Source of the DNA: an uncultured Ellagibacter sp. | GTDB lineage: Bacteria > Actinomycetota > Coriobacteriia > Coriobacteriales > Eggerthellaceae | Direction: 5' to 3' | DNA: 10,901 nucleotides | NCBI GenBank assembly: GCA_934613165.1 | Contig: CAKTSW010000022.1 | Coordinates: 1-10,901 of the forward strand | Shown: in pieces, positions 4,380 to 10,576 of the stretch | How the letters are laid out: each line of letters starts with the position of its first letter | Position numbering within the stretch: position 1 is the stretch's first letter | The notes under the pieces: generated by a model | What the model was told of the DNA's origin: nothing | Databases searched by the model: none | Seen by the model: the letters and a program-made list of their open reading frames with translations, nothing else | Translations under genes and position numbers: made by a program

Positions 4380-4397
4380 CGCTCGCTTAAGCGAGCG
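4380..4397. terminator. 18-bp perfect palindrome between convergent genes, possible bidirectional terminator
   Basis: CGCTCGC, the loop TTAA and GCGAGCG make a 7-bp hairpin (the full 18 bases are self-complementary) directly after the NSS stop. It contains the last codons and the TAA stop of the histidine kinase on the other strand. Neither side has a T-run, so it would be an imperfect intrinsic terminator. Its position exactly between convergent stops still favours a role in transcript ends. Confidence 0.4.
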
Positions 4398-5769
4398 GCA
4401 GCGTTGCCGTGAACGTGGTTCCGGCCTCATCCGAGCTTGCGGCCTCGATGGTGCCGCCGTGCTCCTCGGCGACTTCGCGGGCGATGGAAAGCCCCAGGCC
4501 GTAGCCGCCGGCGCCGCTCGTGCGCGCCTTGTCGGCGCGGTAGAAGCGGTCGAACACGTGCGGCAGGTCGCCTTCGGCGATGGCGGGGCCGCTGTTGTGC
4601 ACGGCGAAGACGACGGAGTTCCCTTTTCGGGACAGGGCCACGTCGATCTCCCCTCCCTTGTCGGCGTACTTGCACGCGTTGTCCAGAAGCGTGGTGACGA
4701 GCCGGCGCAGGCGTTCTTGGCTTCCAAGCACGAAGAGTTCGGGGCCGATGCTGCCGTCGAGCGACACGTTGCGCTCGAAAGCCACCGACTCGAACTGCAG
4801 AAGCTCGCCTTCCACCAGGTTCGACAGGTCGATCCGCTCCTTCGGCTTCGTTTTGACGAGGTCGGTTTCCTCGGCGTCGATGCGCGCGAGCAAAAGCAGG
4901 TCGGCGACGAGCTCCTGCATGCGCGTTCCTTCGGCCTGGGTGCTTTCGACCCACTGGCTTTGGCTCGCCACCGTTCGCTCGGGGTGCGCCATGAGGATTG
5001 ACGTGTTCGCGAGGATGACGGTGAGCGGGGTCTTCAGCTCGTGCGAGGCATCGGCGACGAACTGGCGTTGCTGGTCCCACGCCTGCTTCACCGGGCGTAA
5101 GGCCCAGCGCGAGAAGAACACGCTGATCACGAAGAACACGGCGAGCGTCGCGACCCCGACGCCTGCGAGCGTGAGGGCGAGCGTTTGCCAGCCGCTTGCG
5201 GCGCTGACGTCGGCGAACGCGAGATGAATCTGGCCCGTGTCCGAGGTGCGCTTCTCGTAGAACAGCCCGAGCGATTCGAGCTCCCCGCTGCCGTCGGGCG
5301 CGTCCTTGAGCGCGTTGGACGCTTCGGCGAGCACGTCATCGGCGATGGAAGCGGACGCCTCCGCGGAGGAAAGCTCGCATGATCCGTCGTCGGCCACGGT
5401 GTAGATGGCGATGGGCACGTGGGGCCCGCTGCCCGTGGGCTTACCGCCGATCTGCGGCGGCGTTCCCTGCTGGTTGCTTGTTCCGGGGTCAGCCTGGGCG
5501 CTTTCGCCATTGGCGGCGGGAGCTGCCTGGTCGTCGGCGGTGGAGGCCACTTGGTCGTCGGCGGTGGGGGACGCTTGGCCGTCGGGTTCGGGCTGGGTGG
5601 TGCGCCCCTTCGCCTCGGTGAAGGACAGCGCGTTGCCGAGCGCCTCGTACACAGAGTTCACGTTCTGCTGGTGGCTGATCGCGCAGATGGCGGAAAAGAC
5701 CACGACGAGCACGATCGCCACGGTGACCATGTTGAGCGCGATGAACTTGGCACGGAGCTTCTTCAGCAT
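4387..5769 (-). CDS. Two-component sensor histidine kinase (EnvZ/PhoR-type), 460 aa
   Basis: This is a membrane-bound kinase that should phosphorylate the response regulator encoded 22 bp upstream. Residues about 10-30 form TM1 and about 195-220 form TM2, enclosing an extracytoplasmic sensor region of about 160 residues. The sensor includes a low-complexity stretch (about 56-115) rich in T, A, D, Q, P and G. A RWALRPV segment follows TM2. The HisKA box DASHELKTPLT has the phospho-acceptor H243. The catalytic domain shows the N box LLDNACKYAD (N364), a G1-type HNSGPAI (391-397), the F box VFDRFYRAD (405-413) and the G2 box GGYGLGLSIA (421-430). All key residues are present, so it should be active. 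The start ATG (5769-5767) has AGGGGG about 5-8 bases upstream. The stimulus is unknown; the G1 box has N and S where many kinases have D and G, a common variant. Confidence 0.97.
   Translation of the reverse strand: MLKKLRAKFIALNMVTVAIVLVVVFSAICAISHQQNVNSVYEALGNALSFTEAKGRTTQPEPDGQASPTADDQVASTADDQAAPAANGESAQADPGTSNQQGTPPQIGGKPTGSGPHVPIAIYTVADDGSCELSSAEASASIADDVLAEASNALKDAPDGSGELESLGLFYEKRTSDTGQIHLAFADVSAASGWQTLALTLAGVGVATLAVFFVISVFFSRWALRPVKQAWDQQRQFVADASHELKTPLTVILANTSILMAHPERTVASQSQWVESTQAEGTRMQELVADLLLLARIDAEETDLVKTKPKERIDLSNLVEGELLQFESVAFERNVSLDGSIGPELFVLGSQERLRRLVTTLLDNACKYADKGGEIDVALSRKGNSVVFAVHNSGPAIAEGDLPHVFDRFYRADKARTSGAGGYGLGLSIAREVAEEHGGTIEAASSDEAGTTFTATLPLA
5528..5567 (-). repeat. 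Short direct repeat in the kinase sensor region
   Basis: The 16-base word TGGTCGTCGGCGGTGG occurs at 5528-5543 and again at 5552-5567, a 24-bp period. It encodes the octapeptide-like repeat around TADDQ in the extracytoplasmic low-complexity segment (residues about 68-84). A third, more diverged TADDQ-like unit is not evident. Such repeats often vary in copy number between strains. Confidence 0.6.
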
Positions 5770-5791: not shown

Positions 5792-6469
5792 TTATGCGGC
5801 TTCTGCAGCGAAGCGGTACCCCGCGCCGCGCAGCGTCTCGATGGCGGACGCGGAGCCGAGGAACTTCATCTTCTTGCGGAGGAACGACACGTAGGCTTCC
5901 ACGTTGTTCTCGTCGGCCGCGGCCTCAAGCCCCCATACCTTCTCGATGAGCGTCATCTTCGAGATCGTCTGGCCGGCGTTCGCCATGAGCACCCGGGCGA
6001 GCGAGAATTCCTTGTAGCTGAGATGGATCGACTGGCCCTTGCAGGTCAGGTCGTGGCTTTCCAGGTTGAGCGACAAATCGCCCGCGGTGATGGACTCGAA
6101 GACCACGTCTCCCTGGCGTCGGGTGAGCGCGCGCAGGTGCGCCATGAGCTCGGCGGGGGAAAACGGCTTGGTCATGTAGTCGTCGGCGCCCGAATCGAGC
6201 CCGGTGATCTTGTCGGGAACGGCGTCTTTCGCGGTGAGGAGCAGCACCGGCGTGCCCACGCCCGCGCGGCGCAGTTCGGCCACCACGGTGAAGCCGTCCA
6301 TCTTCGGGAGCATCACGTCGAGGATGACCACGTCGTAGATGCCGCTTTTCGCGTAATCGAGCCCCGATTGCCCGTCGTGAACGGCGTCGGCGCCGTAGCC
6401 GCTTTCTTCGAGAATGCGGCAGAGCGCCTGGGCGAGCCGCACGTCGTCTTCCACTACGAGAATCTGCAC
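5792..6469 (-). CDS. OmpR/PhoB-family response regulator, 225 aa
   Basis: This is a DNA-binding regulator, the partner of the adjacent kinase. The receiver domain (about 1-115) has the complete active site: D8, D9, phospho-acceptor D51 (ILDVMLPKMDG), T79 (LLLTAKDA) and K101 (YMTKPF). The C-terminal winged-helix domain (about 125-222) has the family ending LRGAGYRF. The start is GTG 6469-6467: it gives the classic N-terminus QILVVEDD and has AGAAGGA four bases upstream. The frame stays open for 59 more codons upstream, but those read arginine-rich, unconserved-looking sequence through the hairpin region. It is transcribed with the kinase (22-bp gap). OmpR-family proteins bind direct hexamer repeats with 11-bp spacing, exactly what is found in the control region at 6661-6707, so it probably activates itself and the divergent VTC operon. 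Confidence 0.96.
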   Translation of the reverse strand: MQILVVEDDVRLAQALCRILEESGYGADAVHDGQSGLDYAKSGIYDVVILDVMLPKMDGFTVVAELRRAGVGTPVLLLTAKDAVPDKITGLDSGADDYMTKPFSPAELMAHLRALTRRQGDVVFESITAGDLSLNLESHDLTCKGQSIHLSYKEFSLARVLMANAGQTISKMTLIEKVWGLEAAADENNVEAYVSFLRKKMKFLGSASAIETLRGAGYRFAAEAA

Positions 6470-6473
6470 AGCG

Positions 6474-6480
6474 TCCTTCT
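6474..6480 (-). promoter_or_regulatory. Shine-Dalgarno fixing the GTG start of the response regulator
   Basis: Read on the minus strand this is AGAAGGA, four bases before GTG 6469-6467. It decides the start against the longer open frame that extends up to 6646. Confidence 0.7.
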
Positions 6481-6512
6481 TTCGCCTCGGTTGCCGGCGT
6501 TGGTTTCTTGAA

Positions 6513-6521
6513 ATACTAGCA
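6513..6521 (-). promoter_or_regulatory. Possible extended -10 promoter for the regulator-kinase operon
   Basis: On the minus strand TGCTAGTAT contains TGn joined to TAGTAT (4-5 of 6 consensus bases), about 44 bases before the GTG start. There is no good -35, as is usual for extended -10 promoters. It lies downstream of the terminator-like hairpin at 6537-6560, so it could supply basal expression independent of the regulated promoter. Confidence 0.35.
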
Positions 6522-6536
6522 CGGCCGGTATATGGA

Positions 6537-6560
6537 AAACGCCTCGCTAAGGAGGCGTTT
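6537..6560 (-). terminator. Terminator-like hairpin in the regulator leader (possible attenuator)
   Basis: AAACGCCTC (6537-6545) and GAGGCGTTT (6552-6560) are perfect 9-base complements with a 6-base loop. On the minus strand the stem ends in GCGTTTTCC, a short T-run, so it resembles a weak intrinsic terminator placed between the predicted distal promoter and the response regulator gene. On the plus strand the T-run is only three bases. Confidence 0.45.
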
Positions 6561-6568
6561 GGGAAGTC

Positions 6569-6636
6569 TGCCTCGGAAAAGGCAAGGGTCGCGCCGCTAC
6601 CGCGCTGGGGATCGTGGTTCAAAGGGCGGCGCGACC
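6569..6636 (-). other. Two further stem-loops in the predicted regulator leader
   Basis: TGCCT (6569-6573) pairs with AGGCA (6580-6584) around a 6-base loop. GGTCGCGCCGC (6587-6597) pairs perfectly over 11 bases with GCGGCGCGACC (6626-6636), with 28 bases between that can fold further. Together with the hairpin at 6537-6560 they make three stem-loops in 100 bases, lying wholly between the predicted transcription start and the response regulator start. The strand is inferred from the promoter layout; the stems alone would also fold on the plus strand. Confidence 0.4.
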
Positions 6637-6644
6637 GTGATTTC

Positions 6645-6650
6645 ATTGTC
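6645..6650 (-). promoter_or_regulatory. Predicted -10 box of the regulated leftward promoter
   Basis: GACAAT on the minus strand (4 of 6 to TATAAT) begins exactly 10 bp after the nearest TTTCAG repeat and is the exact mirror position, about the dyad at 6684, of the plus-strand box at 6718-6723. No -35 is visible, as expected when an activator bound to the repeats replaces it. Confidence 0.45.
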
Positions 6651-6660
6651 GGGGATGTTC

Positions 6661-6707
6661 CTGAAAAGAACCTGAAAGGGCGAGGGCATCTTTCAGGGTT
6701 CTTTCAG
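6661..6707. promoter_or_regulatory. Dyad of two OmpR-type direct repeats (operator for the divergent operons)
   Basis: CTGAAA occurs at 6661-6666 and 6672-6677, and its complement TTTCAG at 6691-6696 and 6702-6707. Each pair is a direct repeat with N5 spacing (11-bp period, one helical turn). The two pairs are mirror images around 6684. OmpR-family regulators bind such tandem hexamers (for example CiaR and PhoP boxes), and the only regulator in the neighbourhood is of that family. I infer binding by this response regulator and activation in both directions. Confidence 0.7.
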
Positions 6708-6717
6708 CGGCGCTTCG

Positions 6718-6723
6718 TAGCAT
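6718..6723 (+). promoter_or_regulatory. Predicted -10 box of the VTC operon promoter
   Basis: TAGCAT (4 of 6 to TATAAT) begins exactly 10 bp after the rightmost TTTCAG. The repeat occupies the -35 region, the usual geometry of promoters activated by OmpR-family proteins. The predicted start of transcription is near 6730, leaving a leader of about 90 nt before the VTC gene. Confidence 0.5.
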
Positions 6724-6821: not shown

Positions 6822-7646
6822 ATGATGAGCTATCAGGACGTTTTCGAGCGCAAGGAAGTGAAATACGTGCTTTCCGCCGACCAGCGCGAGGCACTTGTCG
6901 GCGCGCTGTGCGGCCGCATGGCGCCCGATGCGTACGGCACGACCAACATCGTCAGCCGATATTTCGACACGCCGGAGCGCCTGCTGATCGAGCGCTCGCT
7001 CGACAAGCCGACGTACAAGGAGAAGCTCCGCGTGCGCAGCTACGGGCTTCCCGCCGAGGAGGACCAGGTGTTCGTCGAGCTGAAGAAGAAGTACAAGGGC
7101 ATCGTCTACAAGCGTCGGGTCGGCTGCTCGTATGCGGCGGCGCGCGCCTATATGGGCGGCATGCCCTACGAGGAGGCGTGCGCGGCGTACCCGCTCGCAA
7201 GCCCGCTGCTCGCCGAAGCGTCGCTCGCGCCGCGCAGCCTGCAGATCGCGCACGAGATCGACGCGTTCAAGGAGCGCTGGGCGCCGCTGCGCGCGTCGAT
7301 GGTGACGCTGTGCGATCGCATTGCGTACGCGCCCATCGTGGCGGGCGGCGGGGAAAGCGATGACCCGTCGGTTCCCTTCACCCTCCGTATCACCTTCGAC
7401 GCCAACGTCGCGTACCGCGACCTGTTCGAGGAAGAGCGCATCGCGATGGCGTCGCTGCGGCGCCCGCCGGCGGGGTTCGGCCGCCCGCGCCCGCTCCTCG
7501 ATGCGGGGCAGGCCATCATGGAGGTGAAATGCGCGGGGCCGTTTCCTCTGTGGCTTACCCGTGCGCTCGATTCGTGCGGGGCGTACCCCTCGTCGTTCTC
7601 GAAGTACGGCGCCGCGTACCGCGCGAGCATGCGCAAGGCGTCTTAA
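6822..7646 (+). CDS. VTC-domain (polyphosphate polymerase domain) protein, 274 aa
   Basis: This is a cytosolic triphosphate-tunnel enzyme domain. In yeast Vtc4 the same domain makes polyphosphate from ATP. The activity of bacterial stand-alone forms is less settled, so polymerase activity is an inference. The alternating charged residues that line the tunnel are visible: E9-R-K-E-V-K-Y15, YFDTP (47-51), K66-E-K-L-R-V-R72, V85-E-L-K-K-K90, Y96-K-R-R99, T187-L-R-I-T191, M223-E-V-K226 and S260-K-Y262. There is no membrane segment and no SPX domain. GAGGAG at 6809-6814 sits 7 bases before ATG 6822; ATG 6825 and 6807 are alternatives, and 6807 overlaps the ribosome binding site. It is the first gene of a three-gene operon, 66 bp before the DUF4956 gene. 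The pairing of VTC-domain and DUF4956 genes is a recurring bacterial arrangement, often with a CotH gene, which is absent here. Confidence 0.9.
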   Translation: MMSYQDVFERKEVKYVLSADQREALVGALCGRMAPDAYGTTNIVSRYFDTPERLLIERSLDKPTYKEKLRVRSYGLPAEEDQVFVELKKKYKGIVYKRRVGCSYAAARAYMGGMPYEEACAAYPLASPLLAEASLAPRSLQIAHEIDAFKERWAPLRASMVTLCDRIAYAPIVAGGGESDDPSVPFTLRITFDANVAYRDLFEEERIAMASLRRPPAGFGRPRPLLDAGQAIMEVKCAGPFPLWLTRALDSCGAYPSSFSKYGAAYRASMRKAS

Positions 7647-7712: not shown

Positions 7713-8411
7713 ATGTCAGACCTCGTATTCTCCTCCGTGTTCGGGAGCAGCGACTCCGTCGTCGCGTCGGTTTCCGCGCAGAGCTTCCTTCTATGCAGCG
7801 TCGCGTCGATCGTGCTCGGCGCGGTCATCGCGTGCGTTTACATGTTCCGCCACAAATACTCGAAGAACTTCGTGGTGACGCTTGCGCTTTTGCCGCTCAT
7901 CGTGCAGATGGTCATCACGCTCGTGAACGGCAACCTGGGCGCCGGCATCGCGGTCATGGGCGTGTTCAACCTGGTGCGTTTCCGCTCGATCCCCGGCAGC
8001 GCGAAGGACATCGGCAGCGTGTTTCTGGCGATGGCCGTCGGTTTGGCGACCGGCATGGGATTTTTGGGCCTCGCCGTCCTGTTCACTGCGATCGTCGCCA
8101 TTGTGAACGTGGCGTACGTGCTTTCCCCCTTCGGCAAGCCGCGCGAAAGCGAGAAGACGCTCAAGATCGTGGTTCCCGAGGACCTCGATTTCGACGGCGT
8201 CTTCGACGAGGTGCTCGACCGTTACGCGAGCGAGCACGAGCTCACCGAGGTGCAAACGTCCAACATGGGAAGCCTTTACACGCTGCAGTACACGGTGCGC
8301 CTGCGCGAGGCGGGGCTTGAGAAACACCTGATCGACGAGGTGCGCTGCCTGAACGGCAACCTGAAGGTGACGCTTGGCGCATGCGTGCCCCAACCGCAGG
8401 GGGTGCTGTAG
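7713..8411 (+). CDS. DUF4956 integral membrane protein, 232 aa
   Basis: This is a membrane protein of unknown function. Hydrophobic helices are visible at about 24-44, 53-71, 75-88, 100-117 and 118-138. A hydrophilic C-terminal domain of about 90 residues follows, probably cytosolic. The family signature is FNLVRFRSIPGSAKDI (85-100), with charged residues R89, R91 and K98 at a membrane border. Length and order match DUF4956 proteins encoded beside VTC-domain genes. Start ATG 7713 has GAAAGGA about 6 bases upstream. The stop at 8411 is two bases before the lipoprotein ATG, so the two are probably translationally coupled. By analogy with yeast VTC, where the polymerase is held by a membrane part that accepts the growing chain, this protein may anchor the VTC enzyme or move its product. 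That is a hypothesis. Confidence 0.9.
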   Translation: MSDLVFSSVFGSSDSVVASVSAQSFLLCSVASIVLGAVIACVYMFRHKYSKNFVVTLALLPLIVQMVITLVNGNLGAGIAVMGVFNLVRFRSIPGSAKDIGSVFLAMAVGLATGMGFLGLAVLFTAIVAIVNVAYVLSPFGKPRESEKTLKIVVPEDLDFDGVFDEVLDRYASEHELTEVQTSNMGSLYTLQYTVRLREAGLEKHLIDEVRCLNGNLKVTLGACVPQPQGVL

Positions 8412-8413
8412 CC

Positions 8414-10576
8414 ATGAGAAGAAGAGCGATCGACGAGAAAGCTTCCGTGGGGCCGAGAGGCGGGGCTATACCCAGTCGCTCAAACAGTCCTCGCTTCGCT
8501 GCGGAATTCGCTTTGTGGGCACAGCCCCGCCTCTCGGCGCTCTGTGCCGCTACCGCACTCGTTCTTGCACTCATGGGAATGGGCGGTTGCGCCGTCGCGG
8601 GGGCTTCCTCGGATTCGGCTGCCGATACCGTCGCGGCCTCGTCGGAGGAAACCTCGTTCGAGAGCGTGGCGGCCGAATTCGACGTCGCCAACCTCGACCT
8701 CGACTACTCGAATCGCGATATGGACGCAAGCTACGACGATTCCTCGGCGACGCATATCGCGCTTTCCGGCACGTCGGCGAGCGTCGAGGGCGAGGGCGCT
8801 TCGGTCGACGGGGACACCGTGACGATTTCCCAGGCGGGCACCTACGTCGTGTCGGGAACCCTTTCCGATGGGCAATTCGTCGTCGACGCGCCGGACGACG
8901 CGAAGGTGCAGATCGTGCTTGCGGGCGCCTCGATCCACAACGAGGACGGCCCCGCCATCTACGTGGAGAATGCCGACAAATGCTTCGTGACCTTGGCCGA
9001 CGGTACGGAGAACGCGCTTTCCGACGGTACGGACTACGCGCTTGAAGAGGATCCGGACGAACCGTACGCGACGCTTTTCAGCTCCTGCGACCTGACGCTG
9101 AACGGTTCGGGGTCGCTTACCGTTGCGGCGAACTACCGTCACGGCATCTGCTCGAAGGACGACCTCGTCGTCACGGGCGGCACGATCGACGTCACGGCCG
9201 TCGAGGACGCCCTGCGCGGCCACGACAGCGTGAAAATCGCCGACGGCACGTTCAACCTGATCGCGGGCGGCGATGCCGTGAAGTCGAACAAGGACACGAA
9301 GGCGACGAAGGGATTCGTGAACATCACGGGCGGAACCTTCTTTATCCAGGCGGGCGATGAGGCGATGCAGGCGAAAACCTACATCGGGGTGAGCGGCGGC
9401 TCGTTTGACATCACCGCGGGAGACGACGCGTTCCACTCCGACCTCGAGATGGCGATTTCGGGTGGAACCTTCTCCGTCACCGCAGGCGACGACGCATTCC
9501 ATGCCGAAACCGTTCTTACGATCGACGACGGAACGATCGACGTCGCAAGCTGCTATGAGGGATACGAGGCCGAGAAGGTGTACGTGAACGGCGGCACGAC
9601 GCATATCGTGGCGACCGACGACGCCCTGAATGCGAGCGCGGCCGACCTTACGGGCGACGACTCGTCGACGACGGGGAACGAAGGCGCTCTGCCCGAGGCG
9701 CCGGGCGACGCGAGCGCGATGGCCGCGGGCGGCGGTAAGGCTCCCGAAGCACCGAGCGACGGGCAGGCCCCTGAGGCACCGAATGACGGGCAGGCTCCGG
9801 GCGCATCGGGCGACGGCGCTTCCTCAGACGCGTCGAACGCTTCCGGGGAAGCTGCGCCTGCTGGGCAGGCCCCGAGCGCGCCCGACCAGGGCGGCGCTGC
9901 TCCCGACGGGGGCGCGTCGCGGGGCGAGACGCCGCAGCAAGGTGCGGACCCAAGCGGCGATGCGGCGGGACAACCTGGCGGAAACGGCGGCCAAGGGGAT
10001 TTCTCCGGGGGCAACGCGCCTGGTCAGGCCGATGACAACTGCCTGATCCAGATCAACGGCGGCTACATCGAGATCGACGCCCAAGGCGACGGAGTGGACA
10101 GCAACGGCAACGTGGAGGTGACGGGCGGCGTGCTTCTCGTCAACGGAACGACGAGCAATGGCGACGGCGCGTTCGACTACGATGGCGAGGCGACCGTGAC
10201 GGGCGGCACCGTTGTCATGGTCGGGTCGACCGGCATGGCCCAGAACTTCTCGGGCGGCACCCAGCCGTTCCTCTTCAGCGCGGACGTTTCCGGCAACGCC
10301 GGCGATACGGTTGCCATCGTGGACGGGTCGGGCAATGTCGTCGCGTCGCTTACCGCTTCCAAGGCGTTCGCCATGGTGTGCGCGAGCAGTCCGGCCCTTA
10401 CCGAGGGCGGCAGCTACTCGGTAGTCGTGGGTGGGACGGTTGCAGGCGCGAACGCCGACGGCTACACCGATTCCGGGACGGTAACGGGTGGCGCGTCTGC
10501 GCCGGTTTCCGCAAGCACCACCCCGTCTTCGACCTCCACGATGATGGGCGGCGCCGCGCCGTCGGCAAGGAAGTAG
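8414..10576 (+). CDS. Carbohydrate-binding-type beta-helix lipoprotein (Cthe_2159-like), 720 aa
   Basis: This is an exported, lipid-anchored surface protein. An unusually long N-terminus (RRR at 2-4) precedes the hydrophobic stretch (about 43-55) and the lipobox MGGC, with lipidated C59. A beta-helix follows (about 115-410), with coils of 22-23 residues marked by GGTF and AGDDAFH (for example 334-341 and 356-363), typical of the Cthe_2159 carbohydrate-binding family, whose characterised member binds acidic polysaccharide and calcium. A 130-residue insert (about 411-541) rich in A, P, G, S and D interrupts it. The helix resumes at about 542-615 (INGGYIEIDAQGDGVDSNG), and a beta-rich domain and S/T-rich tail end the protein. 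It is very acidic, with many Asp clusters. Start ATG 8414 has AGGGGG about 10 bases upstream; GTG/ATG 8381 is not preferred because it overlaps the DUF4956 gene further. It is the last gene of the operon. Ligand unknown: sugar polymer, calcium or polyphosphate. Confidence 0.88.
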   Translation: MRRRAIDEKASVGPRGGAIPSRSNSPRFAAEFALWAQPRLSALCAATALVLALMGMGGCAVAGASSDSAADTVAASSEETSFESVAAEFDVANLDLDYSNRDMDASYDDSSATHIALSGTSASVEGEGASVDGDTVTISQAGTYVVSGTLSDGQFVVDAPDDAKVQIVLAGASIHNEDGPAIYVENADKCFVTLADGTENALSDGTDYALEEDPDEPYATLFSSCDLTLNGSGSLTVAANYRHGICSKDDLVVTGGTIDVTAVEDALRGHDSVKIADGTFNLIAGGDAVKSNKDTKATKGFVNITGGTFFIQAGDEAMQAKTYIGVSGGSFDITAGDDAFHSDLEMAISGGTFSVTAGDDAFHAETVLTIDDGTIDVASCYEGYEAEKVYVNGGTTHIVATDDALNASAADLTGDDSSTTGNEGALPEAPGDASAMAAGGGKAPEAPSDGQAPEAPNDGQAPGASGDGASSDASNASGEAAPAGQAPSAPDQGGAAPDGGASRGETPQQGADPSGDAAGQPGGNGGQGDFSGGNAPGQADDNCLIQINGGYIEIDAQGDGVDSNGNVEVTGGVLLVNGTTSNGDGAFDYDGEATVTGGTVVMVGSTGMAQNFSGGTQPFLFSADVSGNAGDTVAIVDGSGNVVASLTASKAFAMVCASSPALTEGGSYSVVVGGTVAGANADGYTDSGTVTGGASAPVSASTTPSSTSTMMGGAAPSARK
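8452..8538. repeat. 87-bp palindromic element (REP/MITE-like) inside the lipoprotein signal-peptide region
   Basis: GCCGAGAGGCGGGGCT (8452-8467) and its exact complement AGCCCCGCCTCTCGGC (8523-8538) are 16-base perfect inverted ends with 55 bases between. The pairing continues symmetrically through T8469/A8521 and CCCA (8471-8474)/TGGG (8516-8519), giving 21 pairs in 23 positions around a centre at 8495. The element is 87 bp, exactly 29 codons, so it keeps the frame and adds 29 residues before the hydrophobic core. No clear target-site duplication is visible, and no second copy lies in the window. Confidence 0.65.
9743..9823 (+). repeat. 27-bp tandem repeats in the lipoprotein linker
   Basis: Three 27-bp units encode PEAPSDGQA, PEAPNDGQA and the diverged PGASGDGAS. 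A further diverged unit, PEAPGDASA, lies at 9692-9718. They sit in the flexible insert between the two beta-helix parts and may change copy number between strains. Confidence 0.7.

Follow-up and report, generated by a model that had tools for sequence, protein, structure and literature searches.

Two divergent operons and the element between them

The DNA analysed here, called the window, is a stretch of 10,901 nucleotides from an uncultured Ellagibacter sp. Two operons leave an intergenic region of 352 nt in opposite directions: one encodes a two-component system and the other a set of three proteins with VTC, DUF4956 and Cthe_2159 domains. The locus raises the question of how these operons are controlled, and of whether a single regulator could serve both. 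The features relevant to this question are, in order of position:

4387 to 5769, minus strand: sensor histidine kinase (HisKA and HATPase_c), in the same operon as the regulator
5792 to 6469, minus strand: OmpR-family response regulator (Response_reg and Trans_reg_C), GTG start chosen by alignment with relatives
6645 to 6650, minus strand: -10-like hexamer GACAAT (ATTGTC on the plus strand) of the predicted regulator promoter, 10 bp from the box
6661 to 6677, minus strand: direct repeat TTTCAG-N5-TTTCAG, putative activator box of the regulator promoter
6691 to 6707, plus strand: direct repeat TTTCAG-N5-TTTCAG, putative activator box of the VTC operon promoter
6718 to 6723, plus strand: -10-like hexamer TAGCAT of the predicted VTC operon promoter, 10 bp from the box
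6822 to 7646, plus strand: VTC-domain protein (polyphosphate polymerase-like), first target gene, start as in relatives
7713 to 8411, plus strand: DUF4956 protein, second gene of the target operon
8381 to 10576, plus strand: Cthe_2159 carbohydrate-binding-domain protein, putative lipoprotein, third gene of the target operon

Both PF00072 and PF00486 matched the regulator above their cut-offs, which places it in the OmpR/PhoB family by domain content. An alternative open reading frame of the regulator with an ATG start (5792-6646) would begin inside the -10 hexamer. The start of the VTC gene is 6807 in the list of open reading frames, as against 6822 by comparison with relatives; among the few named relatives of its product, the closest was that of Ellagibacter isourolithinifaciens (76% over 92%).

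The element consists of CTGAAA at 6661-6666 and 6672-6677 and TTTCAG at 6691-6696 and 6702-6707, which form two outward-facing direct repeats, each with a 5-bp spacer, around a common centre at 6684. The -10-like hexamers occupy exact mirror positions beyond the two pairs. An earlier note, made from the sequence of the window, had described this arrangement, and its description of the four hexamers and of the two -10 positions was correct to the base. All four hexamers carry G at the sixth position.

The arrangement is rare by chance. When up to two mismatches were allowed, CTGAAA-N5-CTGAAA matched three times in the window, against 0.40 expected, and both exact matches were at this element. 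Two exact copies of the repeat were found in none of 60 shuffles of the whole window, and no four-copy divergent arrangement of any hexamer with an equal spacer of 3 to 8 bp arose when the intergenic region (352 nt) was put through 2000 dinucleotide shuffles. A generic sigma-70 scan of this region found no promoter, and a standard sigma-70 promoter was rejected.

Conservation of the two promoters in the Eggerthellaceae

The reference set comprised 138 genomes of the family of Enteroscipio rubneri (genome G003, locus L004). A VTC match was present in 81 of the 138, and 82 VTC loci were compared, made up of the window, 79 loci of these genomes and two from the wider VTC search described below, with one genome contributing two; close relatives were kept, and the rows being related, the counts and Fisher tests overstate independence. 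A match allowed at most one mismatch across the two TTTMAG hexamers, with N5 between them and TANNNT at the exact distance, the VTC side being the last 300 nt.

TTTMAG-N5-TTTMAG-N10-TANNNT was found on the VTC side of 72 of the 82 loci, and each other combination of spacer and distance in two loci at most. Among the ten loci without a match, three had CACAAT or CAGAAT, three had two mismatches and four were of other kinds, two of these lying at contig ends. In the 54 divergent loci, the regulator-side box stood 9 bp from TANNNT in 46 and 10 bp from it in one. The box followed by a -10 hexamer at fixed spacing did not occur in any of 50 rounds of shuffling.

Sequences more than 85% alike were then removed, leaving 60 from the VTC side and 39 from the regulator side. 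Hexamer positions carried 0.9 to 2.2 bits, against 0.0 to 0.8 bits in spacer and flanks, the hexamer values being inflated by the choice of sequences through the pattern; the G position of the hexamer reached 1.7 to 1.8 bits in the sequences so chosen. The boxes of the family are a mixture of TTTCAG and TTTAAG, and the fourth base is C, not A, in most of them. Between the window and its nearest relatives (loci L097 and L098), every hexamer and both -10 hexamers are invariant despite an insertion of 19 bp between the pairs. It had been proposed that the hexamers, their 11-bp period and the spacing to the -10 hexamers should be conserved while the surroundings drift, and this is what was found throughout the family.

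No -35 element accompanies these promoters: the best match to TTGACA at 16-18 bp from the -10 hexamer reached only one to three of six bases in 59 of the 60 VTC-side sequences and in all 39 regulator-side sequences, no better than random. Such a lack is the pattern of activator-dependent promoters in which the activator lies over the -35 position.

Spacing and layout across loci

With a looser -10 hexamer (xAxxxT), both sides could be assigned in 53 of the 54 divergent loci. The spacing from box to -10 hexamer, on the VTC side and the regulator side respectively, was 10 and 9 bp in 46 of these and 10 and 10 bp in seven, among which are the window and its two nearest relatives. The equal spacing of 10 bp that the earlier note had taken as a property of the element is thus the minority state, the family rule being 10 bp for the VTC operon and 9 bp for the regulator. 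In the same way GACAAT at 10 bp, shared by the window and L097/L098, departs from the usual state of the family, TACAAT at 9 bp (found in 32 of the 46 loci at that spacing).

The distance between the pairs ranged from 6 to 733 bp among the 53 loci and was 13 bp in the window against 32 bp in the two nearest relatives. The layout is thus variable, the exact mirror symmetry seen in the window being one of its states, and the view of the region as a single compact mirror element had to be given up. Two separate promoters are what is conserved, with a spacing of 10 bp for targets and mostly of 9 bp for the regulator. The distances were unevenly distributed: 23 of the 53 loci had 10-14 bp and four had 6 bp, and none had 7-9 or 15-19 bp. 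A case of 10-14 bp occurred in 11 of the 23 regulator clusters formed at 80% identity, and this recurrent layout may reflect ancestry or a preferred arrangement.

The regulator and comparison with known systems

In the recognition helix of the window regulator, NVEAYVSFLRKKM, the residues E, Y, R and final K are the same in all 60 rows compared, three of which are second copies from the same genomes. Compared by this 13-residue helix alone, 8 of 13 residues are identical to the CiaR helix VVEVYVSKVRKKL (taken from PMC3091779).

CiaR of Streptococcus binds TTTAAG-N5-TTTAAG (consensus NTTAAG-N5-TTTAAG), and a -10 hexamer ten bases from the last hexamer was used in the prediction of csRNAs, according to the part of PMC3091779 used here, with which the mention of CiaR in the earlier note agrees. 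The window has the same geometry: a TTTxAG direct repeat with N5, an OmpR-family regulator and, on both sides, a -10 hexamer ten bases from the last hexamer, a distance kept in the family on the VTC side and mostly shortened to nine on the regulator side. TTTCAG is one base off the consensus in each hexamer, and the G at the sixth position is shared. The two systems differ in that the main targets here are the VTC/DUF4956/Cthe_2159 operon and DUF4405 genes, and in that the regulator's own promoter has a spacing of 9 bp in most of the family. The promoters of CiaR are not known to have a -35 element. A search of the open-access literature by title and abstract gave no report of the element found here.

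The BAS0540 box of a Bacillus two-component system is of the same repeat type (NTTAAG-N5-TTTAAG), the system's own upstream region was among the bound probes, and its targets include the gene of a membrane-fusion protein (PMC4938410); genes of membrane-fusion proteins with a box were found here at loci L185 and L242. In that system, however, the box lies upstream of a predicted -35 element, whereas none is seen here, and no VTC operon is among the targets named in the part of PMC4938410 used for the comparison.

None of the best 25 NCBIfam models reached its cut-off for the window regulator, and membership was rejected for PmrA/BasR (185 bits, cut-off 330), CzcR/CopR (201 bits, cut-off 279) and RppA (197 bits, cut-off 250). 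Of the NCBIfam and PDB relatives of the regulator, PmrA/BasR types nevertheless score among the better ones, and the box of PmrA is a direct repeat resembling CTTAAG. Loci L140 and L154 have helix variants, and their VTC-side boxes end in TTTTAG, a suggestive association, but one of only two related loci.

Proposed mode of action

The best explanation, to which we assign a probability of about 0.85, is that the element is a back-to-back pair of activator-dependent promoters of the CiaR type, through which the adjacent OmpR-family regulator would activate both its own operon and the VTC/DUF4956/Cthe_2159 operon. A dimer of the phosphorylated regulator would bind each TTTCAG-N5-TTTCAG repeat, over the place of the missing -35 element, and would recruit RNA polymerase to the -10 hexamer downstream, in the manner of a streptococcal CiaR promoter. 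One dimer would drive the VTC operon and the other the regulator/kinase operon; activation of both promoters by the regulator, its own included, would amount to positive autoregulation. We infer that the adjacent regulator binds the repeats, that it activates the promoters instead of repressing them, and that a feedback results. The proposal that one regulator serves both operons is retained at its core, for which the conservation, the box that accompanies the regulator when it is encoded elsewhere (29 of 39 cases, see below) and the CiaR-like helix argue; the compact unit and the equal spacing that came with it are not.

A box in this position would also allow the regulator to block the polymerase, so that one or both promoters would be repressed through covering of the -35/-10 region, with negative autoregulation, and the -10 hexamer on the regulator side is indeed usually a good one (TACAAT at spacing 9 in 32 of 46 loci). 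We consider this unlikely. Neither promoter has a -35 element, the distance from box to -10 hexamer equals or nearly equals that of the CiaR-activated promoters described in the part of PMC3091779 used here, and an invariant distance of 9 or 10 bp is expected of an activator that contacts the polymerase but needless for a repressor.

Rarity of the box and linkage to the regulator gene

Exact copies of TTTCAG-N5-TTTCAG were searched for in seven genomes. Gordonibacter pamelaeae (G001) and Enteroscipio rubneri (G003) have two copies each, all in this intergenic region. Four copies were found in G005 and three in G007, two of them at the VTC locus in each genome, and the single copy of G004 is also at the VTC locus; the three copies of G002 and the one of G006 are not. 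Four of the seven genomes thus carry exact repeats also, or solely, away from the VTC locus.

The repeat together with the -10 pattern was found in 82 of the 138 family genomes, against one of 138 for the reversed control. When TTTMAG was allowed for each half, matches were found in 140 of the 395 genomes of the order (reversed control, 5 of 395): 92 of the 138 of the family, 24 of the 208 in block G147-G354 and 24 of the 49 in block G355-G403. Eight genomes of the same order (G261-G268) have a similar site in common, TTTAAG-N5-TTTAAG followed 10 bp on by TACGAT.

An orthologous regulator, defined by a best E value better than 1e-75 (seven genomes at 1e-50 to 1e-65 being counted as lacking it), was present in 91 of the 138 family genomes; three weak VTC matches were dropped from the co-occurrence count. 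The TTTCAG-type box was found in 76 of the 91 genomes with the regulator against 6 of the 47 without, a difference whose p-value is descriptive only, the genomes being related. Fifteen genomes have the regulator without an exact TTTCAG-type box and six have the box without an orthologous regulator at the cut-off; in five genomes the box occurs with neither an orthologous regulator nor a VTC gene at the cut-offs.

In 39 genomes a regulator match was found that is not divergently beside a VTC gene (one of them, G083, also has a VTC-adjacent regulator), and up to 401 nt upstream was inspected. A box pointed at the regulator in 29 of these 39 cases, always 9 bp from TANNNT: in 20 of the 24 where the VTC gene is elsewhere or on another contig, and in 9 of the 15 in genomes without a VTC match. 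Some of the 24 separated cases may be assembly breaks, as in G046 and G047 (L220 and L221), where the genes are near contig ends; on one contig, the two genes are about 67 kb apart in G002 and about 86 kb apart in G100. Ten of the 39 regulators have no box toward them, and five of these ten have one that points away (L337, L340, L342, L348 and L349, with none toward the regulator in the stretch inspected). One of these five is the regulator of G088, whose divergent gene encodes a Cthe_2159 protein (L233).

Other genes behind the box

DUF4956 genes located away from VTC had their own box, at 10 bp, in all five loci from four genomes, L007 and L137 being the same place. Non-VTC box sites were inspected at 45 loci among the matches listed. 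The first genes downstream included at least ten regulators (four orthologous with 67-78% identity, one with 42% and five with about 38%), at least one DUF4956 gene, at least three Cthe_2159 genes by match and at least four by cluster, and at least five DUF4405-like genes (one checked in Pfam). They also included at least two genes for membrane-fusion proteins (one checked), one for an FtsX/MacB permease at least, at least two for HtrA-type proteases (one checked), at least one for PspA and at least two for MreB-like proteins, named by eye; several other genes occurred once each. Three of the 45 sites had no open reading frame of 90 amino acids within 400 nt.

The DUF4405 genes were taken further with a set limited to E values up to 1.4e-35, weaker matches being excluded. 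A box was found in 19 of 23 loci, and its distance was 10 bp in 18; the pattern search had already given five of these 19, the query included. On these counts the DUF4405 gene is a second predicted target. The DUF4405-like proteins at L216, L235 and L240 share a C-terminal cysteine motif, CxLCxKRCxxSxxxCDxPYxxGL, possibly a metal or redox site.

htrA is a strong target of CiaR in pneumococcus (PMC3091779), and HtrA genes have a box here too, in 6 of the best 30 loci (two exact, which include the query's own site, and four with one mismatch). HtrA is present in 135 of the 138 genomes, and it was rejected as a core target on the box count. In other Gram-positives, Pel polysaccharide clusters come with a related gene set, consisting of CotH, a polyphosphate polymerase and DUF4956 (PMC7112168). 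A role of the VTC/DUF4956/Cthe_2159 operon and its regulon in the cell envelope is our guess, DUF4405 being a frequent target and PspA and HtrA occasional ones.

The distances at these sites follow those of the divergent loci. Regulators have a spacing of 9 bp in 46 of the 53 loci beside VTC and in 29 of the 29 boxes found away from it; targets have a spacing of 10 bp in 53 of 53 VTC loci, 5 of 5 separate DUF4956 loci and 18 of 19 DUF4405 loci. Tentatively, the same activator might through this single base drive itself and its targets at different thresholds, and the compact layout might let two dimers cooperate across the centre. If true, the regulon would have a built-in hierarchy set by one base.

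For the widespread operon of VTC polymerase-like, DUF4956 and Cthe_2159 proteins, and likewise for the membrane proteins with DUF4405, these data provide a candidate regulator with its binding word and a predicted core regulon. They also make it possible to test which signal the kinase receives and what role the operon has.

Occurrence of the box beyond the family

A wider set of 65 VTC upstream regions, mostly clostridial, was obtained from the best 80 of 592 loci. In 30 of the 65 regions a box with N5 stood 9 or 10 bp from the -10 hexamer, against 0.04 in shuffles. Variants with N4 at 10 bp were present in ten loci and variants with N6 at 9 bp in eight, so that the spacer would be less strict, or less well read, in this mostly clostridial set.

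The type of the neighbouring regulator was related to the presence of the box: among the best 80 of 592 loci, a box was present in 9 of 10 loci with a window-like helix and in 10 of 21 with a W-type helix (p = 0.046; helix types were assigned by hand and two loci of neither type left out). In divergent loci of the same set, boxes were on both sides in all four with a window-like helix (L019, L046, L051 and L060), and no box was found in the two with a W-type helix. Eight such genomes gave 25 full-pattern matches against 2 for the reversed control, one genome being without a match. That VTC genes are preceded by the box in these records, most of them clostridial, suggests that the operon and this type of regulator have long been linked. 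A Desulfoscipio genome (G140, L035; contig C13 and others) has eight similar sites, four of them in two divergent pairs 6 bp apart.

These observations bear on whether the boxes could be read mainly by another OmpR-family regulator, the adjacent one being merely one of its targets. A different OmpR-type regulator, of about 38% identity, is preceded by a box in five loci (L213, L214, L219, L226 and L227), 9 bp from TACAAT or TAGAAT. Another regulator may therefore share the box, through a cascade or as a shared site; the five genomes that have a box at the cut-offs with neither orthologous regulator nor VTC gene point in the same direction. That such a regulator is the main reader is nevertheless quite improbable. 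The box strongly co-occurs with the orthologous regulator, which, where not adjacent to VTC, has a box of its own in 29 of 39 cases, and the helix of the adjacent regulator is CiaR-like and nearly invariant, while the example at L219 differs, by eye, in the helix region. The preference for the window-like helix in the mostly clostridial set (9 of 10 against 10 of 21 among the best 80 of 592 loci, p = 0.046) also argues for the adjacent regulator.

Possible RNA features of the intergenic region

The stretches 6661-6678 and 6690-6707 form an inverted repeat with arms of 18 nt, 83% complementary and separated by 11 nt, which could be taken for an RNA hairpin, a terminator or attenuator, between the divergent genes. 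This is hardly credible: each arm is located upstream of both -10 hexamers, and the predicted transcripts would therefore contain neither of them; a search for T-run terminators found none; the variation of the pair distance from 6 to 733 bp in relatives contradicts a hairpin; and loci that have just one of the genes carry a single box. Rfam gave no match in the window at gathering thresholds. A chance repeat without function is refuted by the 2000 shuffles and the family-wide conservation.

Near the start of the regulator, a hexamer TAGTAT (6513-6518, minus strand) is conserved in the window, L097 and L098; by eye, it is not preceded by a TTTCAG box at 9-10 bp in the window, and it is possibly a second promoter. 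In the window 191 nt separate the box of the regulator from the start of its gene, against a distance within 93 nt in 45 of 53 loci. The leader of the regulator operon (6470-6638, minus strand), about 170 nt long and similar in the two nearest relatives, folds better than shuffled sequences (z -3.75) and contains the conserved block CCGCGCTGGGGATCGTGG (plus strand).
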